From: Planctomycetota bacterium
GTDB lineage: Bacteria; Planctomycetota; Phycisphaerae; Sedimentisphaerales; SM23-30
NCBI GenBank assembly: GCA_029573975.1
Contig: JAKQBU010000445.1
Span: 1-16,633, forward strand
Direction: 5' to 3'
Length of the DNA: 16,633 bases
The notes under the pieces are model-generated. The model had not been told where the DNA came from and did not search any database. It worked only from the letters and a program-made list of their open reading frames with translations. Each line of letters starts with the position of its first letter. Positions within the stretch are counted from its first letter, which is position 1. The position numbers and the translations under genes were made by a program. This document shows positions 266 to 10,350 of the stretch, in pieces.

Positions 266-1390
266 ATGACAAAGAAAATAAAAGTGATATGTGTCTGCGG
301 TGCCCGGCCGAACTTTATGAAAATTGCCCCGTTGATGCGGGCTTTTCGCCGGCAGGTCGGATTTCAGACGCTGCTGGTGCATACGGGCCAGCATTATGAC
401 GAGAACATGAGCAAGCTGTTCTTCGATCAGCTAGCGATTCCCAAACCGGACATCAATCTGGAAGTCGGTTCCGGCAGCCATGCCGTTCAGACGGCTCAGA
501 TCATGGAACGGTTTGAGCCGATCGTGCTGGATTTTCAGCCGCATTATGTGCTGGTGGTGGGGGATGTGAACAGTACGATTGCCTGCGGCCTGGTGGCAGT
601 GAAGCTGGGGGTCAAGCTGATTCACGTGGAGGCGGGGCTGCGCAGTTTTGACCGGGCCATGCCAGAAGAGATCAACCGGGTACTGACGGATTCCATCAGT
701 GATCTGCTGTTTGTGACGGAACCGGCGGGGATGGAGAATCTGAAAAACGAAGGAGTCAATTCGCACCAGGCGTATCTGGTCGGGAACGTGATGATCGATA
801 CGCTGCTGGCGAATCGGGAGAAGGCGGAGCAGACGGAAATCTTATCGCGATTCCAATTGGAGCCGCGGCACTACGGCCTGATCACCCTGCATCGGCCCAG
901 CAATGTGGATTCTCCGGCGAGCCTGATTTCGATCTTTGGCGCTTTTGCGGAGATCCAGAAGGAGATGCGGCTGGTATTTCCGATTCATCCGCGGACGCGT
1001 AAAAATATCCAAAAGGCCGGTCTGGAAGAGATGGTAGCCGGGATGAAGAACCTGCTGCTGCTGGAGCCGCTGGGGTATCTGGAGTTTTTGAATCTGACCA
1101 GCCACGCGGCGGTGGTGATGACAGATTCGGGGGGCATCCAGGAGGAAACGACTATTCTGGGCGTGCCGTGCATGACGCTGCGGGAAAATACCGAGCGGCC
1201 GATTACGATTACGCAGGGAACCAATCGTCTGGTGCATACTACCACCGAAGATATACTGGCAAAATACCGGGAATGCACCAGAAAGCCGCTGCCGGCGGGG
1301 CATACCTGTCCGGAGCTTTGGGATGGCCAGGCGGCGGAGCGGATTGTGCGGATCATCGCCGAACGGTTTGCGGGTGAAACGGGCCGTTAG
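266..1390 (+). CDS. wecB: UDP-N-acetylglucosamine 2-epimerase (non-hydrolysing), WecB family
   Basis: This cytoplasmic enzyme interconverts UDP-GlcNAc and UDP-ManNAc and supplies ManNAc-type sugars for surface glycans. The 374 residues are the usual family length and the chain looks complete. Visible signatures run in order: GARPNFMKIAPL at 12-23, HTGQHYD at 39-45, GDVNST at 99-104, HVEAGLRSFDR at 120-130, PEEINR at 133-138, TLHRPSNVD at 207-215, PIHPRTRKN at 239-247, TDSGGIQEE at 286-294 and RENTERP at 306-312. By comparison with E. coli WecB, the catalytic residues would be D100, E122, E134 and H209; all are present. The ATG at 266 has only a weak upstream purine run (GGGAATGAAAG). No UDP-ManNAc dehydrogenase lies nearby, so the onward fate of UDP-ManNAc is not shown here. 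WecB-type epimerases are frequent members of exosortase/EPS loci, which fits the neighbourhood. The family call is secure; the exact sugar product is inferred. Confidence 0.95.
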   Translation: MTKKIKVICVCGARPNFMKIAPLMRAFRRQVGFQTLLVHTGQHYDENMSKLFFDQLAIPKPDINLEVGSGSHAVQTAQIMERFEPIVLDFQPHYVLVVGDVNSTIACGLVAVKLGVKLIHVEAGLRSFDRAMPEEINRVLTDSISDLLFVTEPAGMENLKNEGVNSHQAYLVGNVMIDTLLANREKAEQTEILSRFQLEPRHYGLITLHRPSNVDSPASLISIFGAFAEIQKEMRLVFPIHPRTRKNIQKAGLEEMVAGMKNLLLLEPLGYLEFLNLTSHAAVVMTDSGGIQEETTILGVPCMTLRENTERPITITQGTNRLVHTTTEDILAKYRECTRKPLPAGHTCPELWDGQAAERIVRIIAERFAGETGR

Positions 1391-1418
1391 TTTATTCCGC
1401 CAGTGAAAACTCATTCTG

Positions 1419-1432
1419 TGACGCCGGCGTCA
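1419..1432. promoter_or_regulatory. 14-bp perfect palindrome between wecB and the hydrolase
   Basis: TGACGCCGGCGTCA at 1419-1432 equals its own reverse complement and lies 29 bp after the wecB stop. With no loop it would be a poor hairpin in RNA, but it has the form of an operator for a dimeric DNA-binding protein. It could also be chance in GC-rich DNA. No T-tract follows, so terminator function is unlikely. Confidence 0.25.
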
Positions 1433-1475
1433 AAAGCTCTTGGACTCCTTGTTGTTGGAGGGCCAGAGCGGTTTT

Positions 1476-1530
1476 TTGGATGACAATATCGACTTTTGGC
1501 GGTTCCGTCTTATGCGGTTACGAACAATTT
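1476..1530 (+). repeat. Leader repeat, copy B, upstream of or inside the hydrolase 5' end
   Basis: This is the partner of the copy at 181-240, with 25 of 29 identical bases at 1476-1504 followed by a second short match around the ATG at 1512. It falls where a longer TTG-initiated hydrolase reading frame (from 1440) would encode residues 13-30. Because the other copy sits in clearly untranslated sequence ahead of wecB, this copy argues that the hydrolase is translated from the ATG inside it, or from a site further downstream. The alternative is that both copies descend from one piece of coding DNA. Confidence 0.5.
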
Positions 1531-2660
1531 TCAAGGCACTTCTGCAATACGTGCAAAAGAGGGAGGCGGCGGGGCCGGATGGGATATCTGCGGCGGAGGA
1601 AGGCGGCCAACGGCGGCAAATTCCCCCTGCGGCCTGTTCCAGTGCGTGGGACGATTTGTTGGGGGATAGTAAGAATCTGCACGAGTGGAAACTGCATAAG
1701 GAGGTTCTGCGGCGGCGGTATCTGGACCTGATTCGGGATGACCGGAAACCCGTGCGGGTGCCGCTGGAGCTGAAGATCCATGAGTCGGTTCCGGTGGATC
1801 ATGCGTATAGCCGGCAGAAAGTCAGCTACCAGGTGGAGGAAGGGGAACGGGCGTCTGCCTATATTGCCATTCCGCTGGAGCGGGCGGGGCGGCTGCCCGC
1901 GGTGATTGCCCTGCACGGCACGGATGAATACGGCAAGGAGCAGACGGCGGGGCTGGCGGGCCAACCGGAGAAGGCGTATCTGGATCATCTGGCGCGGCGG
2001 GGGTATGTGGTGCTGGCGCCGGACCATTTTGTAATGGGGGAGCGGACTCCGCCGGAAAAGGCGTATGATACGCGGCGGTTTTATCAAAAACATCCGGACT
2101 GGACGGCGGTGGGAAAATGTACGTATGAAAATTCGATCGCGGTGGATGTCCTGGAATCGCTGGCGGAGGCGGATCCGGACCGGATCGGGGTGCTGGGGCA
2201 TTCGCTGGGCGGGCATAGTGCCTATTTTCTGGCGGCCTATGACCAGCGGATCCGGGCGGCGGCGTGCAATTGCAGCGCCCCGACGTTTGGCCAGAACCCC
2301 CAGGTGAGGGACTGGGCGCGTGATTCGTGGTACAGTTATTTCCGGCATCTGCGGCCGGTTTTTTTGCGCGGAGAGCTGCCGCCGATTGATATGCACGAGA
2401 TTATTGCCTTGATCGCCCCGCGGGCGTTTCTGGATATTTCCGGGCTGAATGACGGGCATCCGCTGACCCAGCGGCAGCGTGTTTTGATGCATATGAAGAT
2501 CATGGAAGTATATGAGCTGGAAAAGGCCCCGCAAAATTTTGCGTTTTATGTGCATGGCCAGGGCCATTCTGTCCCCTATGATGCGCGTCAGCTTTTGTAT
2601 GCGTGGATGGACAGGCACCTGAAAAAGCCCGAGGCTATTCAACCGCGCCGGGTGCGTTAA
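1512..2660 (+). CDS. Alpha/beta hydrolase, dienelactone-hydrolase/acetyl-esterase-like
   Basis: This is a soluble serine hydrolase with no signal peptide or membrane segment. Numbering from the ATG at 1512 (382 residues), the alpha/beta core begins near residue 100. An ALHG strand end, the likely oxyanion region, lies at 133-136. The nucleophile elbow GHSLGG has Ser231, a probable acid is Asp314 in GLNDGHP, and the catalytic His is His352 in GQGHS. It is most like the dienelactone-hydrolase/acetyl-xylan-esterase branch, so an ester or O-acyl substrate is plausible. The specific substrate is unknown. The start is uncertain: the frame stays open upstream to a TTG at 1440, but that region contains the leader repeat shared with wecB, and conserved sequence seems to begin only around residue 45. 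The ATG has just a weak GGCGG about 9 nt upstream. It follows wecB in the same direction, which suggests tailoring or turnover of the same glycan (inference). Confidence 0.8.
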   Translation: MRLRTIFKALLQYVQKREAAGPDGISAAEEGGQRRQIPPAACSSAWDDLLGDSKNLHEWKLHKEVLRRRYLDLIRDDRKPVRVPLELKIHESVPVDHAYSRQKVSYQVEEGERASAYIAIPLERAGRLPAVIALHGTDEYGKEQTAGLAGQPEKAYLDHLARRGYVVLAPDHFVMGERTPPEKAYDTRRFYQKHPDWTAVGKCTYENSIAVDVLESLAEADPDRIGVLGHSLGGHSAYFLAAYDQRIRAAACNCSAPTFGQNPQVRDWARDSWYSYFRHLRPVFLRGELPPIDMHEIIALIAPRAFLDISGLNDGHPLTQRQRVLMHMKIMEVYELEKAPQNFAFYVHGQGHSVPYDARQLLYAWMDRHLKKPEAIQPRRVR

Positions 2661-2663
2661 AGC

Positions 2664-2915
2664 TAGCCCGCATATTTCCCAGGCTTTTGTTTTTCAGCGG
2701 TCTTTTTGCCCGCCTTCTTCGTTCTCGTCGCTATCTGTCCTCGACATATTGCCCTATATGCCTGCGGAAGATAGCTTCTGCGGCCTCGAAGGCAGCCAAA
2801 AATTTGCGCTGAAAACGGTCTGTTGATGTCAGCGAAGAGAAAAATAGTACGCACTATATGCGGAACAGTGAAGTTAGGATTCTGTGTGTCAAAACCCCGT
2901 GAAAAATGCGGGCTA
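2664..2915. mobile_element. TA-flanked, TIR-bounded repeat element (MITE-like)
   Basis: The left end TAGCCCGCAT (2664-2673) and the right end ATGCGGGCTA (2906-2915) are perfect inverted repeats. The similarity runs on inward through a C-rich stretch to CTTTTG on the left and CAAAA on the right, about 27 bp in all with a few mismatches. Both ends abut a TA dinucleotide, which is what insertion into a TA target, as by IS630/Tc1-mariner-type transposases, would leave. The roughly 250-bp interior has no credible gene and holds a 128-bp palindrome. A third copy of the end lies at 10323-10350. Calling it a non-autonomous mobile element is inference; it could instead be a REP-like dispersed structural repeat. 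Confidence 0.6.
2689..2816. repeat. 128-bp imperfect palindrome, long hairpin, possible bidirectional terminator
   Basis: Matching arms all share one centre: 2689-2699 with 2807-2816, TTTTT 2703-2707 with AAAAA 2798-2802, GCCTTC 2712-2717 with GAAGGC 2788-2793, GCTATC 2730-2735 with GATAGC 2770-2775, and CATAT 2745-2749 with ATATG 2756-2760 around a 6-nt tip. Paired coordinates sum to 5505 at four separate stems, so the two arms carry no net indels. It lies between convergent genes and could terminate transcription from both sides. Confidence 0.75.
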
Positions 2916-3782
2916 CCGGCCGTAGGAAAAGTGGAGTTCGGCGGCCTGGAGGGATTCAAGCTGGCGGCAGACGGGGGTGAACCGATGGCGGGTCATCAGC
3001 CAGCGTAGTTTGGCGGCGGTGCGGCACAGGCCGACCCGGTGGCGCCAGCGGCTGAGGCGGGACATGGGCAAGAGGGGCTGCTGGGGATCGAATTCCCAGG
3101 GATGCAGGTAAATCATGCCGAGGGTATGGCTGCTTTCGGCTTGCCGCAAGGCCCAGTCGATCATGCGGATGGGCAGCAGCCGCAGATAGCCGCCGCCGCC
3201 GATGGGCCAGTTGGTATGGAAGAGCCGCAAGGTAAGCGGGGGGATTTCCAGAAGGCGGCCGCCGCCGGGGCCGAGGGCCTGGTGCGGCTGGGGGGGGGCA
3301 TCCGGCACGCCATAGCGGTCATGATGGACGGGGAAAATAGACGAATCATAGAGGAAGCCTTCCTCCGCCAGCACATCCAAAGCCCAGGCGGTCCGGCGGG
3401 TGATGGAAAAAGTCGGGGCTCGATAGCCCAGGACGGGCCGGCCGGCGAGATCCTCCAGAATTTTTTTACTGTCCCTTAATTCCTGCCGAAATTCGTCCCG
3501 GCTTACCCGATGAATCATGGTGTGGCTCATGCCGTGGGAGGCGATTTCATGGCCCTGGCCGGCGATTTTTTTTATCAGGTCCGGGTTCTGCCGGGCGGCC
3601 CAGCCGAGGATGAAAAAGGTGGCGCAGGTTTGCTGTTCGGCCAGGATTTCCAGGATTTCGGTAATCCCGATGTGCAGCCGGCTTTGCCAGGTGTGCCACT
3701 GCTGCGAGGAAATGCGGGCGGCGGCGGCTTCCACCTGGAAATATTCTTCGACATCAAAACTCAGCAGATGATCCATGTGCAT
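2913..3782 (-). CDS. Polysaccharide deacetylase, exosortase-associated DUF3473 type
   Basis: This is a NodB-fold carbohydrate esterase predicted to remove N- or O-acetyl groups from the exopolysaccharide. Its 289 residues are a normal length for the XrtA-linked deacetylase family (polysaccharide deacetylase plus C-terminal DUF3473). Signatures are SFDVEEYFQV at 8-17 with metal/catalytic Asp10, the zinc motif SHGMSH with His83 and His87, GYRAPTFSI at 119-127 with Arg121, YDSSIFPVHHDRYG at 145-158, GGGYLRLLP at 196-204 and YLHPWEFD at 225-232 with His227. The C-terminal part (LCRTAAKLRWLMTRHRFTPV, 252-271) is DUF3473-like and appears complete. No signal peptide is evident. The gene is the last of the leftward exosortase-TPR-deacetylase set, 21 bp after the TPR stop, with GGAA just upstream of its start. 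Its TAG stop coincides with the edge of the repeat element. The family assignment is strong; the exact substrate is inferred. Confidence 0.93.
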   Translation of the reverse strand: MHMDHLLSFDVEEYFQVEAAAARISSQQWHTWQSRLHIGITEILEILAEQQTCATFFILGWAARQNPDLIKKIAGQGHEIASHGMSHTMIHRVSRDEFRQELRDSKKILEDLAGRPVLGYRAPTFSITRRTAWALDVLAEEGFLYDSSIFPVHHDRYGVPDAPPQPHQALGPGGGRLLEIPPLTLRLFHTNWPIGGGGYLRLLPIRMIDWALRQAESSHTLGMIYLHPWEFDPQQPLLPMSRLSRWRHRVGLCRTAAKLRWLMTRHRFTPVCRQLESLQAAELHFSYGR

Positions 3783-3803
3783 CCATTTCCGGCGGCTGGT
3801 TTC

Positions 3804-6800
3804 TCAGGGCTGCTGCGCCGGAATTTTGTCCAGCTCGGCCCGGGCTTTTTGGATGATATCGGCCATGACCGGCGTGACGGCGGTTCCGTCTTTCTGCATT
3901 TTTTGCCCGATTTGCACGGCGGCCTGCCAATGCCAGGCGGCCGACTCGGTTTGGTTTAGAGCTTGTTCCGCCATGGCGAGATGGTAGTGAACTTCCGGGG
4001 AATTGGGCAATTGTTTGATTGCCCAGCGGAGGGTTTGAACCGCGGATTCGTAGCGGCCCAGCAAATAGTCGATCCAGCCGGCTGTATCGCGGACCGTGGG
4101 TTCGTTAGGCATAGCCTGCAGGACCGCTTCCATCATTTTTTGGGCTTCGGCAAGTTTTTCCGGGTTTTCCGAGTAGAGCAGGGTCATGACATAGGCGGCG
4201 TTATTGGCGGCCATGAAATTTTTGGTTTCGTTCCAGACGTTCTGATAAATTTCCAGAGCCTTCTCCAACTGGCCGGCGTTTTCCAGGGCGATGCCCTGAT
4301 AGAGCAGGAGGTCGCCCGGATCCTGTCCCTCGGCGATGATTTGGCCGTATAAAGCGGCGGCTTTTTCATATTCCTGCTCTTCCAGGAGGATTTTCGCTTC
4401 GATGGTTTTGGCCAGCAGGCTATCTTTCGGTTCCAGCAGTTCCAGGGTTTTCTGCATTACGGCCTTATCGGCGACAAAGGAGCTGGCGGTGGCCGCCGCC
4501 CAGAGGCAGGACGGGCGGGCGTGCAGCACTTCCAAGGCCCATTGGCGGCCCAGTTCGGGAATTCCCAGATCGAGTGCGGTATTGGCCATCAGCAATTGTA
4601 CGGCTTCGGGGCGATTGGGATGGGCCAGCGAATAGGATACCAGTTCCGAGGCGATGGTGCAGTCGAGGGAGCGGGGATTTTGGAAGCGGGCCAGCTCCGC
4701 CTGGGCCAGGTCGTTTTGGCCGGCGGCCAGGCGGATGCAGATTTTGTATAAAAGCGGGACGGGCCGCATATTCGGATTTTGGGCGGCCTGCCGGTCCAGT
4801 TCCTCCAGGCGGGCCAGGCGGGCCTGGATTTGATTTTCATTATTTACCCGGCCGGCGCAGCAAAGACCCAGTACGGAATCGTAGAAATCGCTCTCGGGGG
4901 CCGGCGTGAGCAGTTCCGCAGCCTGGTCGGGCTGCTGATCGAGGTAAAGCAGGATAGCCAGAAGGCGCCAGGACCGCTGACCCGACCATTGCCCCGGCTT
5001 CTGCCCCGCTGCCTGTTTGGCAATGTCCGCGCACAAAGCGGCGGCGGCGGGCCGGTCCGAGGCCTGCACGAAGGCCCGGGTCGCCGGCAGACGAAGTTCG
5101 TCAGGCAGAGGCTGATTCCTATTGTGTCCCTGGAGAAAGGCGGAAAAGACCGATACTGCTTCATCGGGCCGGTTTTCGGCCAGCAGGGTATTCATCATTT
5201 CCGCGGCGGCGGCGGCGTCCTGGGGATACCGGGCCTGTACCTGGCGCAACCGTTCTACTTTTTCATCGGTATCTTCGGTGAGCCAGGCGAGCAATAGCTG
5301 GGCCTTTACATAGTCCGGGCTGTATTCCGGGATTTTTTCCAGCATCTGGCGGGCTTGTGTTTTTTCGCCCAGGATGGCAAAATTTCTTCCCAGAAACAAC
5401 TGGAGTTTGGGATTGCTGCTGTAGCCGGAGGCGGCCAGCGCCTCATAACAAGCGATGGCCTGTTTTTGCAGGCCCCATTCCTCAAACAAAATACCCTTCT
5501 CAAACATGGCGGCCGACCAACCGCTTTGTCCGGATTTTTCGAGTTCCGCCAAAACTTCCAGGGCCTGCTGGGGCTGCTGGAGGCGGTTCAAGGCCCTGGC
5601 CAGAGAACGATAGATGGCAAACATATTGGGCTGGAGGTCTTTGGCCTGGCGATAGCAGGCGACGGCTTCTTCCCAGCGGTTTTGGCCTTCCAGAACGGAG
5701 GCGCGCAGCAGATAGGGTTCCGGATCTTGGGGGAACAACTGTTCTTCTTTTTCGGTGAGGGCCATTGCCTGGTCGAACTGCTGCCGGTCTTGATAGTAGC
5801 GAATGAGTTTGCGGAACAGGACTTTGTCCCGCTGTTCGCCGGCGGTGCGGGAAAGGTTTTGCGCGATGGCGTCGGCCTCCGCCGGGCGTTCTGCCTGGAG
5901 GAGCAGGCCGATTTTGATGAAATCGACGGATTCTCCGCCAATTTTCCCCTGGCGGATGGTATTCAGCAGTTCCAGAGCGGGGGCGATCTGTCCCTGGCTG
6001 ACCAGGCTTCTGGCGGTAAAGAGTGTGGCGAGGCTGCGAACTTCCTGGGGGGCTTCGATATTTTTTTCTGCGCGGCGATACGACTCCATTGCCTGGGGGT
6101 ACTTTTTCTGCCCTTCCAACAGCCAGCCGAGGGCCAGATCGATCAGATAGGTTTCTGCGCCCGGGATGACGGACAGTTTTTTGGTAATTTCTTCGGGGTT
6201 GTTCGTTTGGCTCAGGAAGCGGGTCAAGACCAGATAATTGGAGAGGTTCCGGGGGCCCATTTGCAGCAGGATGCGGTATTGTTCCTCGCACTGATCCCGT
6301 TGGCCGAGAGCCAGATAGGCCTGGCTGAGGAGGGTTCGGATTTCGATGCTGTCGTTTTTACGGGTTAATTCGGTTTGACAGATTTTGATGCATTCTTCGG
6401 GCTGGCCGGACTGGAGATAGGTCATGGCCAGGCCGATCCGGTCGGCAATGCCTATTTGCTCCAGGGTCGGAACCGCGGGAAGGGTCTGTTCCTGGATCAG
6501 TTTCAGTTGCAGTGCCATCAATTGGGACTGGGTGCTGGGGGAAGAAATTTGTTCCAGCATTTGCCGGCATTCTTCCAGATCCCCGGTTTCCATTTGGATC
6601 CGGGCGATGGCCAGCCGATAGGTGTCGTTGTTGCTGTCGAGACGGAGGGCTTCCCGGTATTCTTCCAGGGCCTGGAAATTCCGGCCGGTATCGGCATACA
6701 TTTGTCCCAGCGCGAAATGGATACGGTGCTGCCGGGGATCTTTTTCTAATTCATCCAGCAGGATTTTTTCCGCTTCTGCTTCCCGGTCGATTCGTATCAA

Positions 6801-8420: not shown

Positions 8421-10058
8421 CTAGGGTAAAACCCGGTTGATTTGCGGCATGCCCATGCGCAGGAATTCGCCGGCACGGGCCCGGGCCTGGGGGATTCCGG
8501 TTTCGACGGGGGTGGAGACCCGGATCAAGGCGCCGCTGGTATTGCGATTTCCTAATCCGTTGGCAAAAATAACGGCCTGCTGGAGCCAAAAACTGTCCGT
8601 GTATCTGCGGCCGCATTTATAGGTATAGAGATAGTAGGTTTGGCGGGAGCCGGCCTGGACCACCAGTTCCCGGCATGAAACGTCCCCAATATCTGGGATA
8701 CCGGTTACGGCCAGGGTATTTTTGTAAATGATGTTTTGGCCGCCGCCTTCCAGGCACAAATCGGGCGGGTGGGTGCCTTTTCGATTGTCTTTGCTGAAGA
8801 CCAGGCAGAAATCAACCGGTTCCCGTCCGGGCCGGGCATAGCGGCGCATGAGAGCGGCTTCCGTTTCCAGAACGACCAGCACCTGGGGGTCAAATTCGAC
8901 GATATAACTGTGCCAGTCCTCGTCCTGATAGCGGATTTGTTCCGGCAGGGCCCCGGCGAGGATGGCTTCGGTATAAACGGGGGGTATGGTTCGCTGGAAC
9001 CACCAACTGCCGGCCGCCATCAGAATCGCCGCCGCCACGGCCGCTCGGCTGTTTCGAGTCCGGATGGCATTCCAGAGAAGCGTCCCCTGCGGCGGATCGT
9101 TGCCGGAGCGGCGGACATCGGCAAACAAGGGGGATACGGGGATCGGCCTGCCGGCAAGAGCATACGCCCCCAGGATGAGCCGTTCCAGGCCGAAGAGCAG
9201 CAGAAACGACATGACCAGAATCATGAGTCCGGAGAAGTCATGAAACCAGCCGGTGGCGATTTCCACAGTCCACAGGTCCGCCACCACGATGAGGCTCAGG
9301 ATGCGCAGGGCGTTGCTGATAACCGCCACCGGGACTGACATGGCAAACAGAAAGATCCGCGTCAGCCCTTTCAGCCGGCAGATATAGGCATAGAGAGCTC
9401 CGAAGGCCATCACGCTGATCAGAGTCCGCAAGCCGTTGCAGATATTGGCGATGACCATGGATTTATCCCCCTCCAGGAATACGCGGTTGCTGGAGCGTTC
9501 GGCAATAATTCCGATCCAGTTGGCCATGGTCACCCCCCAGTCCGCGGCCAGGATTTTCAGCCGGAAGTTCATCTGGGCAATCGAGACCTCGGGCAGGGGA
9601 ACCATGAAGAATAAAAAGAAAATCGGAAACCAGAGCCGTCGAAAGGCGGTGGAACCCCACCCTACCAGCGTCAGGCCGGCCAGTACTCCGATGAAGGCAA
9701 AGCCGCTGGCAAAATTGATCCGGGCGAAGGCGGCGGTGAGGTGCAAAAGGATGGAACCGCCCAGCACCAGCCAGCCCAGCATGGGGCGGGGCCTGACGGG
9801 GATACGGGTGTAGCGAATCAGCAGATAGCCTATCAGTAAACTGACCAGCGGGACCAGGGGGGCATGGGTATAATAGCTTTCTGTCTTGGTAATCTGGTCG
9901 TAAAATCCGGAATTCAGACGGTTCCACCCCGGAAACCACCGCATCCACATTTCCGCAAAGGTGTTGGCAAAAGCGACTGCCAGAGCGGCCGCCAACAGAG
10001 TCCAGCCGGCCGCGGCCAGCCATTTGTTGTTGTCTGTGTTTTCGGTTTTTTCCTGCAT
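8421..10058 (-). CDS. Exosortase with fused C-terminal EpsI-type domain
   Basis: This is a polytopic inner-membrane cysteine transpeptidase predicted to cleave the PEP-CTERM tails of exported proteins. The 545 residues comprise an exosortase domain at about 12-300 with roughly eight hydrophobic helices, then a linker, another membrane helix at 338-354, and an EpsI/DUF3485-like extracytoplasmic domain at 360-545. All three exosortase catalytic positions are visible: Cys207 in NICNGLRTL, Arg252 in ISNALRIL and His273 in GWFHDFSGL. The EpsI hallmark appears as KGTHPPDLCLEGGGQ at 427-441. In many proteobacteria EpsI is a separate gene, so the fusion is notable but already known for some exosortase lineages. 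It heads the leftward operon and is divergent from the O-antigen ligase gene. The ATG at 10058 has only a distant GGA upstream. Because the neighbouring deacetylase is of the XrtA-linked type, the system resembles EPS-linked exosortases, but the subclass cannot be fixed by eye. Confidence 0.93.
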   Translation of the reverse strand: MQEKTENTDNNKWLAAAGWTLLAAALAVAFANTFAEMWMRWFPGWNRLNSGFYDQITKTESYYTHAPLVPLVSLLIGYLLIRYTRIPVRPRPMLGWLVLGGSILLHLTAAFARINFASGFAFIGVLAGLTLVGWGSTAFRRLWFPIFFLFFMVPLPEVSIAQMNFRLKILAADWGVTMANWIGIIAERSSNRVFLEGDKSMVIANICNGLRTLISVMAFGALYAYICRLKGLTRIFLFAMSVPVAVISNALRILSLIVVADLWTVEIATGWFHDFSGLMILVMSFLLLFGLERLILGAYALAGRPIPVSPLFADVRRSGNDPPQGTLLWNAIRTRNSRAAVAAAILMAAGSWWFQRTIPPVYTEAILAGALPEQIRYQDEDWHSYIVEFDPQVLVVLETEAALMRRYARPGREPVDFCLVFSKDNRKGTHPPDLCLEGGGQNIIYKNTLAVTGIPDIGDVSCRELVVQAGSRQTYYLYTYKCGRRYTDSFWLQQAVIFANGLGNRNTSGALIRVSTPVETGIPQARARAGEFLRMGMPQINRVLP

Positions 10059-10322: not shown

Positions 10323-10350
10323 GTCAAAAGCCCATGAGAAATGCGGGTTA
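10323..10350. repeat. Solo copy of the 28-bp repeat end
   Basis: This stretch aligns with 2888-2915, the right end of the element at 2664-2915, over 28 bases without gaps and with 24 identities (GTCAAAA.CCC.TGA.AAATGCGGG.TA). It also matches the inverted left end (2691-2664) at 20 of 28. All three copies end in TA on the same side. No opposite-orientation end is visible nearby, so this is a solitary end, a decayed element, or a shorter repeat that the larger element has acquired. Weak similarity may continue upstream from a shared GAACAG (10299-10304 and about 2862). Confidence 0.65.

Follow-up and report, generated by a model that had tools for sequence, protein, structure and literature searches.

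MITEs are usually viewed as leftovers of one insertion sequence. REP and BIME sequences are short palindromic intergenic repeats without transposon ends or duplications. MITEPye1 of Paracoccus yeei is reported to be small and gene-less; it has inverted ends and direct repeats, lies between genes, folds as RNA in silico, and is linked to IS1182 through a mover inferred from matching insertion sequence ends (PMC11578231). IS1380 transposases are described in another study as distant prokaryotic relatives of piggyBac, used there as an outgroup (PMC10140906). Multicopy palindromic sequences of Geobacter are described as dispersed palindromic intergenic repeats (PMC2996986).

We analysed a stretch of 16,633 nucleotides from a Planctomycetota bacterium, referred to in its entirety as the window. 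The element found in it shares its terminal repeat and a 4-bp YTAR duplication with insertion sequences assigned to the IS1380 family (NF033539, PF13701) through the transposases scanned, and differs in lacking a transposase gene and in containing a hairpin that was not seen in the insertion sequence loci searched. Like MITEPye1 it is small, gene-less, inverted-ended, flanked by direct repeats, intergenic and foldable as RNA in silico, with a putative mover assigned through insertion sequence ends; unlike that element, the window MITE is linked to IS1380 and its hairpin is common to elements with other ends (PMC11578231). Its family recalls the piggyBac superfamily in having TTAA among its targets, but is bacterial and targets YTAR, not only TTAA. 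It is palindromic and intergenic like REP/BIME sequences, but is longer and has transposon ends and target duplications. The hairpin module and the Geobacter palindromes are both dispersed, palindromic and intergenic, a comparison made by description only (PMC2996986). The element itself is of an ordinary kind, an IS1380-type MITE with a clear history; what is out of the ordinary is the cargo, a structured module common to elements with other ends.

We consider it very probable that a MITE with CCCGCAT ends and a hairpin module as its interior was moved in trans by an IS1380-family transposase, and was inserted into a YTAR-like site at a stop codon after the split from UR.bin216, the sister metagenome-assembled genome (MAG; G001).

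Results and discussion

Anatomy and setting of the element

The boundaries of the MITE were drawn from 15 nearly full-length copies in UR.bin216 and from an empty site in the same genome (locus L010). The features are as follows.

2663..2666, no strand: left target duplication CTAG, matching the family-wide duplication YTAR
2667..2912, no strand: whole MITE, 246 bp
2667..2680, plus strand: left terminal inverted repeat CCCGCATATTTCCC, ATATTTC subtype
2681..2825, minus strand (the better folding strand): conserved, structured hairpin module of 145 nt, supported by cmsearch with model R3 (115.2 bits), covariation and strand stability
2826..2887, no strand: variable right segment, the least conserved part of the element besides the hairpin loop
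2899..2912, minus strand: right terminal inverted repeat, CCCGCATTTTTCAC on the minus strand
2913..2916, no strand: right target duplication CTAC, in which CTA serves, read on the minus strand, as the TAG stop codon of gene 2913-3782, with the same CTA stop in L010
10323..10347, plus strand: solitary right end of the MITE's family, followed by TTAA, the same in UR.bin216

The inverted repeat reported in the original prediction is present, with arms at 2664-2689 and 2890-2915 (26 nt, 85% complementary) and a perfect match over the outer ten bases. The TA said to bound it on both sides does lie within the outer TAG and CTA, but these belong to the target duplication, and the element proper spans 2667-2912. 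No gene is enclosed, the sole listed open reading frame (ORF) of at least 80 amino acids across the element being a 98-residue frame with a TTG start. The element is therefore not an autonomous member of the IS1380 family, since it encodes no transposase ORF; it is short, lacks a transposase gene and carries terminal inverted repeats, as a MITE does.

The flanking genes are convergent, as had been noted. To the left ends a plus-strand hydrolase-like gene (1440-2660), whose family matches all fall below cut-off, and to the right lies the minus-strand gene 2913-3782, which encodes a polysaccharide deacetylase of the XrtA system (TIGR03006, above cut-off). The setting is an exosortase/PEP-CTERM type locus. 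An exosortase-like protein encoded at 8421-10058 scores above the general exosortase model and below the XrtD and XrtA subtype cut-offs. Another dispersed repeat, some 90 bp long, is found at 1419-1509, with a part at 181-209, and has copies of 79-86% identity in many UR.bin216 loci. This repeat overlaps the TTG start predicted for gene 1440-2660, whose true start may be downstream.

The end sequence recurs at 10323-10350 with the reported identity of 86% (24/28), a match expected by chance in the window with a probability below 1e-5 (an estimate with uniform bases). This right end is at the same place in UR.bin216 (L008/L055). No left partner was seen for it, and the hairpin model had no match there.

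A dispersed family and an empty orthologous site

UR.bin216 contains 40 dispersed matches to the window element (E up to 1e-3), including 15 that are nearly full length and 79-87% identical, and a 12-base end occurs there 34 times, against 2 occurrences of the reversed pattern. In a collection of species genomes the right-end pattern was found in 21 stretches, 15 of which are in UR.bin216. One further stretch, in an Acidobacteria MAG, is an element of 85 bp that shares these ends and is flanked by TTAA left and right; the other five are isolated matches not flanked by YTAR.

The window element gave no useful match to plasmids, phages or viral contigs, with one plasmid match at E 0.3, and one end pattern and two core patterns had no match in the same three collections. 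Three further cores had no match on plasmids, a fourth matched a Halomonas plasmid in part, and a shorter end pattern had matches in 11 viral contigs.

UR.bin216 is 95-97% identical to the window on both flanks of the element. At L010 it aligns with window positions 271-2665 (96.6%) and 2912-6688 (94.6%), with the element absent in between. The two alignments overlap by 4 bases, and the empty site reads CTAC, a single target copy with no remnant. The corresponding left and right flanks in the window, CTAG and CTAC, are identical at three of four bases; the duplication of the window copy is therefore imperfect, and CTAC, also the sequence of the empty site, is not a YTAR. The minus-strand deacetylase gene terminates at the same TAG in either genome. 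At about 1482-1602 of L010 there is also a right-half MITE beside the 90-bp repeat, and the window equivalent (about 158-271) is without a MITE.

The search for copies and for an empty site proposed with the original prediction gave both, further UR.bin216 copies and one empty site; neither a lack of copies nor conservation of the sequence without an empty site was encountered. The suggestion of a dispersed family and a non-autonomous transposon is borne out by the many copies in the sister genome, the empty orthologous site, the target duplications, and insertion sequences that share the ends; the element is a non-autonomous transposon (MITE). We infer that the polarity is one of insertion in the window lineage after its split from UR.bin216, not of loss. 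The reverse history, an old element precisely excised in UR.bin216, appears very unlikely given the one 4-bp target copy and the absence of a remnant at that site; in its favour, two genomes were compared at the site, so that the duplication is the one feature that sets the polarity.

The duplicated target and stop codons

A TA-targeting transposase had been proposed, which is wrong in detail: the duplication is the 4-bp YTAR, as in the IS1380-type elements found. Duplication of TA was ruled out because 4-bp flanks are duplicated, including asymmetric pairs such as CTAA/CTAA. Among 13 elements of UR.bin216 paired by script, nine had identical 4-bp flanks and four had one mismatch. The 35 pairs from other genomes comprised 16 identical pairs, 11 with one mismatch and 8 with two to four, some of these last being chance pairings. 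Two of the 15 nearly full-length UR.bin216 copies lay beyond the end-score limit of the script (L037, TTAA/TTAA; L032, TTAG/CTGG). Five identical pairs, one of them in UR.bin216, are asymmetric (CTAA or TTAG), a pattern accounted for by a direct 4-bp duplication and not by symmetric ends.

End counts were taken from the all-ends search with the window pair included, and the other counts were about the same as in the best-match search. The first three target bases are partly fixed by the search patterns and the fourth is free; it was A or G at all 54 UR.bin216 ends and at 140 of 150 other ends. The full YTAR was present at 46/54 and 129/150 ends, respectively, the first three bases being subject to the same constraint.

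Any YTAR carries TAA or TAG on each strand, so an insertion at a gene end rebuilds the stop codon. Using ORFs of at least 100 codons and crude ORF controls, we found ends inside a stop codon significantly more often than control sites in the other genomes (33/126 against 5/160), and without significance in UR.bin216 (9/45 against 4/48, P 0.14). Selection against gene disruption may explain part of this placement. In the window, the YTAR-like site of insertion coincides with the stop codon that terminates the XrtA-type polysaccharide deacetylase gene; as 4 bp were duplicated, this codon was kept and no gene was broken. The YTAR target offers a simple reason for the tolerance of such elements at gene ends.

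The putative mobilising transposase

The exact 17-base end was present in 22 of 392 sampled Planctomycetota genomes. In four of these, facing CCCGCATTTCTCAC ends bound insertion sequences of 1675-1746 bp that enclose a long ORF and are flanked by identical duplications (CTAG or TTAA). Scans of two of the four transposases gave PF13701 matches of 517.8 and 524.9 bits; one of the two was also run against NCBIfam and matched NF033539 (IS1380) at 381.8. The terminal repeat of the MITE is thus the repeat of elements encoding an IS1380 transposase, as judged from these two of the four.

In the order of UR.bin216, 17 of 161 genomes had a protein matching this transposase (E up to 1e-20). Paired ends were found at four of the 24 transposase loci examined there (L212, L213, L215 and L232); L213 and L215 are bounded by identical CTAA duplications, and L215 carries the ATATTTCA subtype. 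The other 20 showed no convincing paired ends. No IS1380 transposase with the MITE's ends was found in UR.bin216 itself. Its complete IS1380-type transposase (L124, G001:C44) belongs to another subgroup (32% identity) and lies beside a CCCGGATTTCCC sequence, with no paired ends at the locus. The transposase with matching terminal repeats that was to be looked for is therefore of IS1380 type and present in other Planctomycetota genomes, but none was found in UR.bin216.

Two end positions co-vary in both arms of the UR.bin216 family, each in 4 of 16 copies, a pattern to be expected if the ends track their transposase. Among further small elements with the MITE's ends, L120 and L121 have no match to the hairpin model and L122 and L123 contain the hairpin; a 38-bp element (L102), hardly longer than its two adjoining ends and flanked by perfect CTAG duplications, is perhaps a minimal substrate. 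Origin of the MITE by internal deletion of an insertion sequence was rejected, since the interior shares little with insertion sequence ends beyond about 14 bp. The hairpin model had no match in 27 loci around IS1380-type transposase matches. Judging from the shared ends and target, an IS1380-family transposase would have acted in trans on the CCCGCAT ends and moved the window copy.

These observations also bear on whether the element could be a REP/BIME-like or regulatory structural repeat, spread by recombination, of which the inverted ends are simply part. It is intergenic, palindromic and, here, at gene ends, as such a repeat would be; the precise empty site, the direct 4-bp duplications and the insertion sequences with the same ends make this highly improbable. 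The structural repeat offered earlier as an alternative to a transposon was correct in that a structured hairpin, one of a wider family, makes up the interior, and incorrect as a substitute for the transposon, because both hold.

A hairpin module with covarying base pairs

Identity within the MITE family is 95-97% in the inner hairpin arms, 88% in the outer arms, 74% in the loop and 70-77% in the right segment. We built a covariance model (R1) from window positions 2681-2825 and relatives, read on the plus strand, and two further models (R2 and R3) on the folded strand. With R1 the same fold was found in 8 of 161 genomes of the order, with 19 scored matches in one genome (G424) and 11 in another (G510).

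Compensatory covariation exceeded both shuffled and slid controls. In a MAFFT alignment of 29 sequences found with R1 and read on the plus strand (A5), for which 12 of the 36 pairs were added by hand from an earlier consensus (A3), 91.5% of cells pair, compared to 74.6% in shuffled and at most 43.2% in slid alignments. The covariation score was 0.404, against 0.121 and at most 0.117, respectively, and a measure of further pair types showed no excess over shuffles in A5. In a MAFFT alignment of 36 sequences from four phyla (A10), 25 of 26 predicted pairs have changes on both sides, a count made without the shuffled and slid comparison. An alignment fitted to the model (A8), which leans towards it, scored 0.720 against 0.198. 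In the arms of the hairpin module, base pairing is better conserved than sequence.

The plus-strand reading as RNA, used for R1 and A5, was rejected in favour of the reverse complement, which gives the better fold. Stability is greater on the folded strand in 25 of 29 single sequences of A5 (consensus energy -36.0 against -17.0) and in 32 of 36 of A10 (-27.9 against -11.4). G-U cells outnumber A-C cells by 35 to 30 in A5 with the plus-strand structure, where 28 of the 35 fall in one pair; by 92 to 5 in A8, which leans towards the model; and by 90 to 18 in A10 with its own fold, where 27 of the 90 fall in one pair. For the 18 A10 pairs that both strands predict, G-U leads by no more than 27 to 15, which weakens the strand argument at these pairs.

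The folded strand is the minus strand of the window and the sense strand of the deacetylase gene, so the hairpin would form the 3' untranslated RNA of that gene. Of several possible roles, we consider it likeliest that the hairpin acts as RNA, in 3'-end stabilisation, termination or protein binding. No Rfam family was matched in the window at gathering score; five loci with related hairpins gave six weak sub-threshold matches.

Folding of single-stranded DNA, or repair acting between the two arms, could also underlie the covariation. Long imperfect inverted repeats are known to undergo arm correction, and template switching would transfer changes between the arms with no function involved, which would suit the modest excess of G-U (27 to 15) where both strands predict a pair. 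Arm correction should, however, erase mismatched segments, and those around CAAGG/AACGC and CCGSAGGC/GTCGAGGA are among the best conserved in the aligned hits from four phyla; together with the much better consensus folding on one strand, this renders a purely mutational origin of the covariation, our null hypothesis, unlikely.

Distribution of the hairpin across phyla

Scoring the best 8 to 11 candidates per genome, we found matches (E up to 1e-3) with R2 in 43 of 392 Planctomycetota genomes, the phylum of UR.bin216, and with R3 in 56 of 297 Acidobacteriota, 52 of 299 Pseudomonadota and 29 of 274 Bacillota, phyla that include, respectively, an Acidobacteria, a Zoogloeaceae and a Lachnospiraceae MAG. 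The best E was up to 1e-6 in 23/392, 43/297, 26/299 and 16/274 genomes, in the same order. Bacillota were discarded as a negative control, the best hits in the 29 positive genomes having the same core by eye, and the false-positive rate of weak matches is uncalibrated. Single MAGs of Zoogloeaceae, Legionellales and Lachnospiraceae gave no matches with R2, and the Acidobacteria MAG gave 18.

The best hits have a common unpaired signature, roughly CAAGGCG...CCGCAGGCGTA(loop)TACGTCGAGGA...CAACGC. Three loose motifs, which are uncalibrated, all occurred in 102 of the 110 hits examined, mostly the strongest ones (55/60, 21/21, 18/20 and 8/9 by set). Core strings of 10-13 letters, searched in the open-access literature, returned only papers with unrelated titles among the matches listed.

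Different ends on one core

Hairpin flanks were read by script at 26 loci. Elements with CCCG ends and 4-bp duplications contain the hairpin at L265 (TTAG), L285 and L297 (CTAG) and L304 (within TTTAA). Ends of GAGCC, GAGTT or GGAGC type with 3-bp duplications surround it at L266 (TTA), L267 (TAA), L272 (CTA) and L281 (TTA). A 3-bp match is weak by itself and gains its weight from the combination with the end type; GAGCC-type ends with 3-bp duplications we take to be those of the IS5 family. The remaining loci have other ends or unclear duplications. The hairpin module is thus found in elements with at least two different types of end and duplication.

In REP, attC and the ends of IS200/IS605, a folded single strand is recognised by a protein. 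The hairpin might likewise act as single-stranded DNA, with one strand folded and recognised during replication or transposition, which would help the element to move with different transposases. The occurrence of the module with different ends and duplication lengths fits such a role, as does the lack of a hairpin match around the IS1380-type transposases, and the strand asymmetry is expected for single-stranded DNA as well. The elements have ordinary inverted ends and duplications, though, and we hold this role, the main rival reading, to be possible but somewhat doubtful, a role as RNA being preferred.

Tentatively, we propose a single ancient module of about 145 nt with conserved internal loops, present in at least four phyla as gene-less transposon cargo that would have exchanged its ends repeatedly. 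Mobile non-coding elements of this kind would form a new class, in which a portable hairpin, of RNA or single-stranded DNA, borrows the transposase at hand and can land harmlessly in stop codons. If this is true, the unit that evolves is the core rather than the ends, and a structured RNA or single-stranded DNA element that is so far uncharacterised becomes testable across several phyla.

By rough ORF calls, and with some near-duplicate loci included, the neighbouring genes were convergent at 21 and divergent at 7 of the 110 hits examined, a tally that carries no weight in our interpretation. The Pseudomonadota hairpins (L323-L342) were antisense to both neighbours in 13 of 20 cases, some of these loci again being near-duplicates and the ORF calls rough. 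At one locus of the Bacillota set (L344, G1151:C32:11162-11459), two hairpin copies lie in tandem, 1 base apart.
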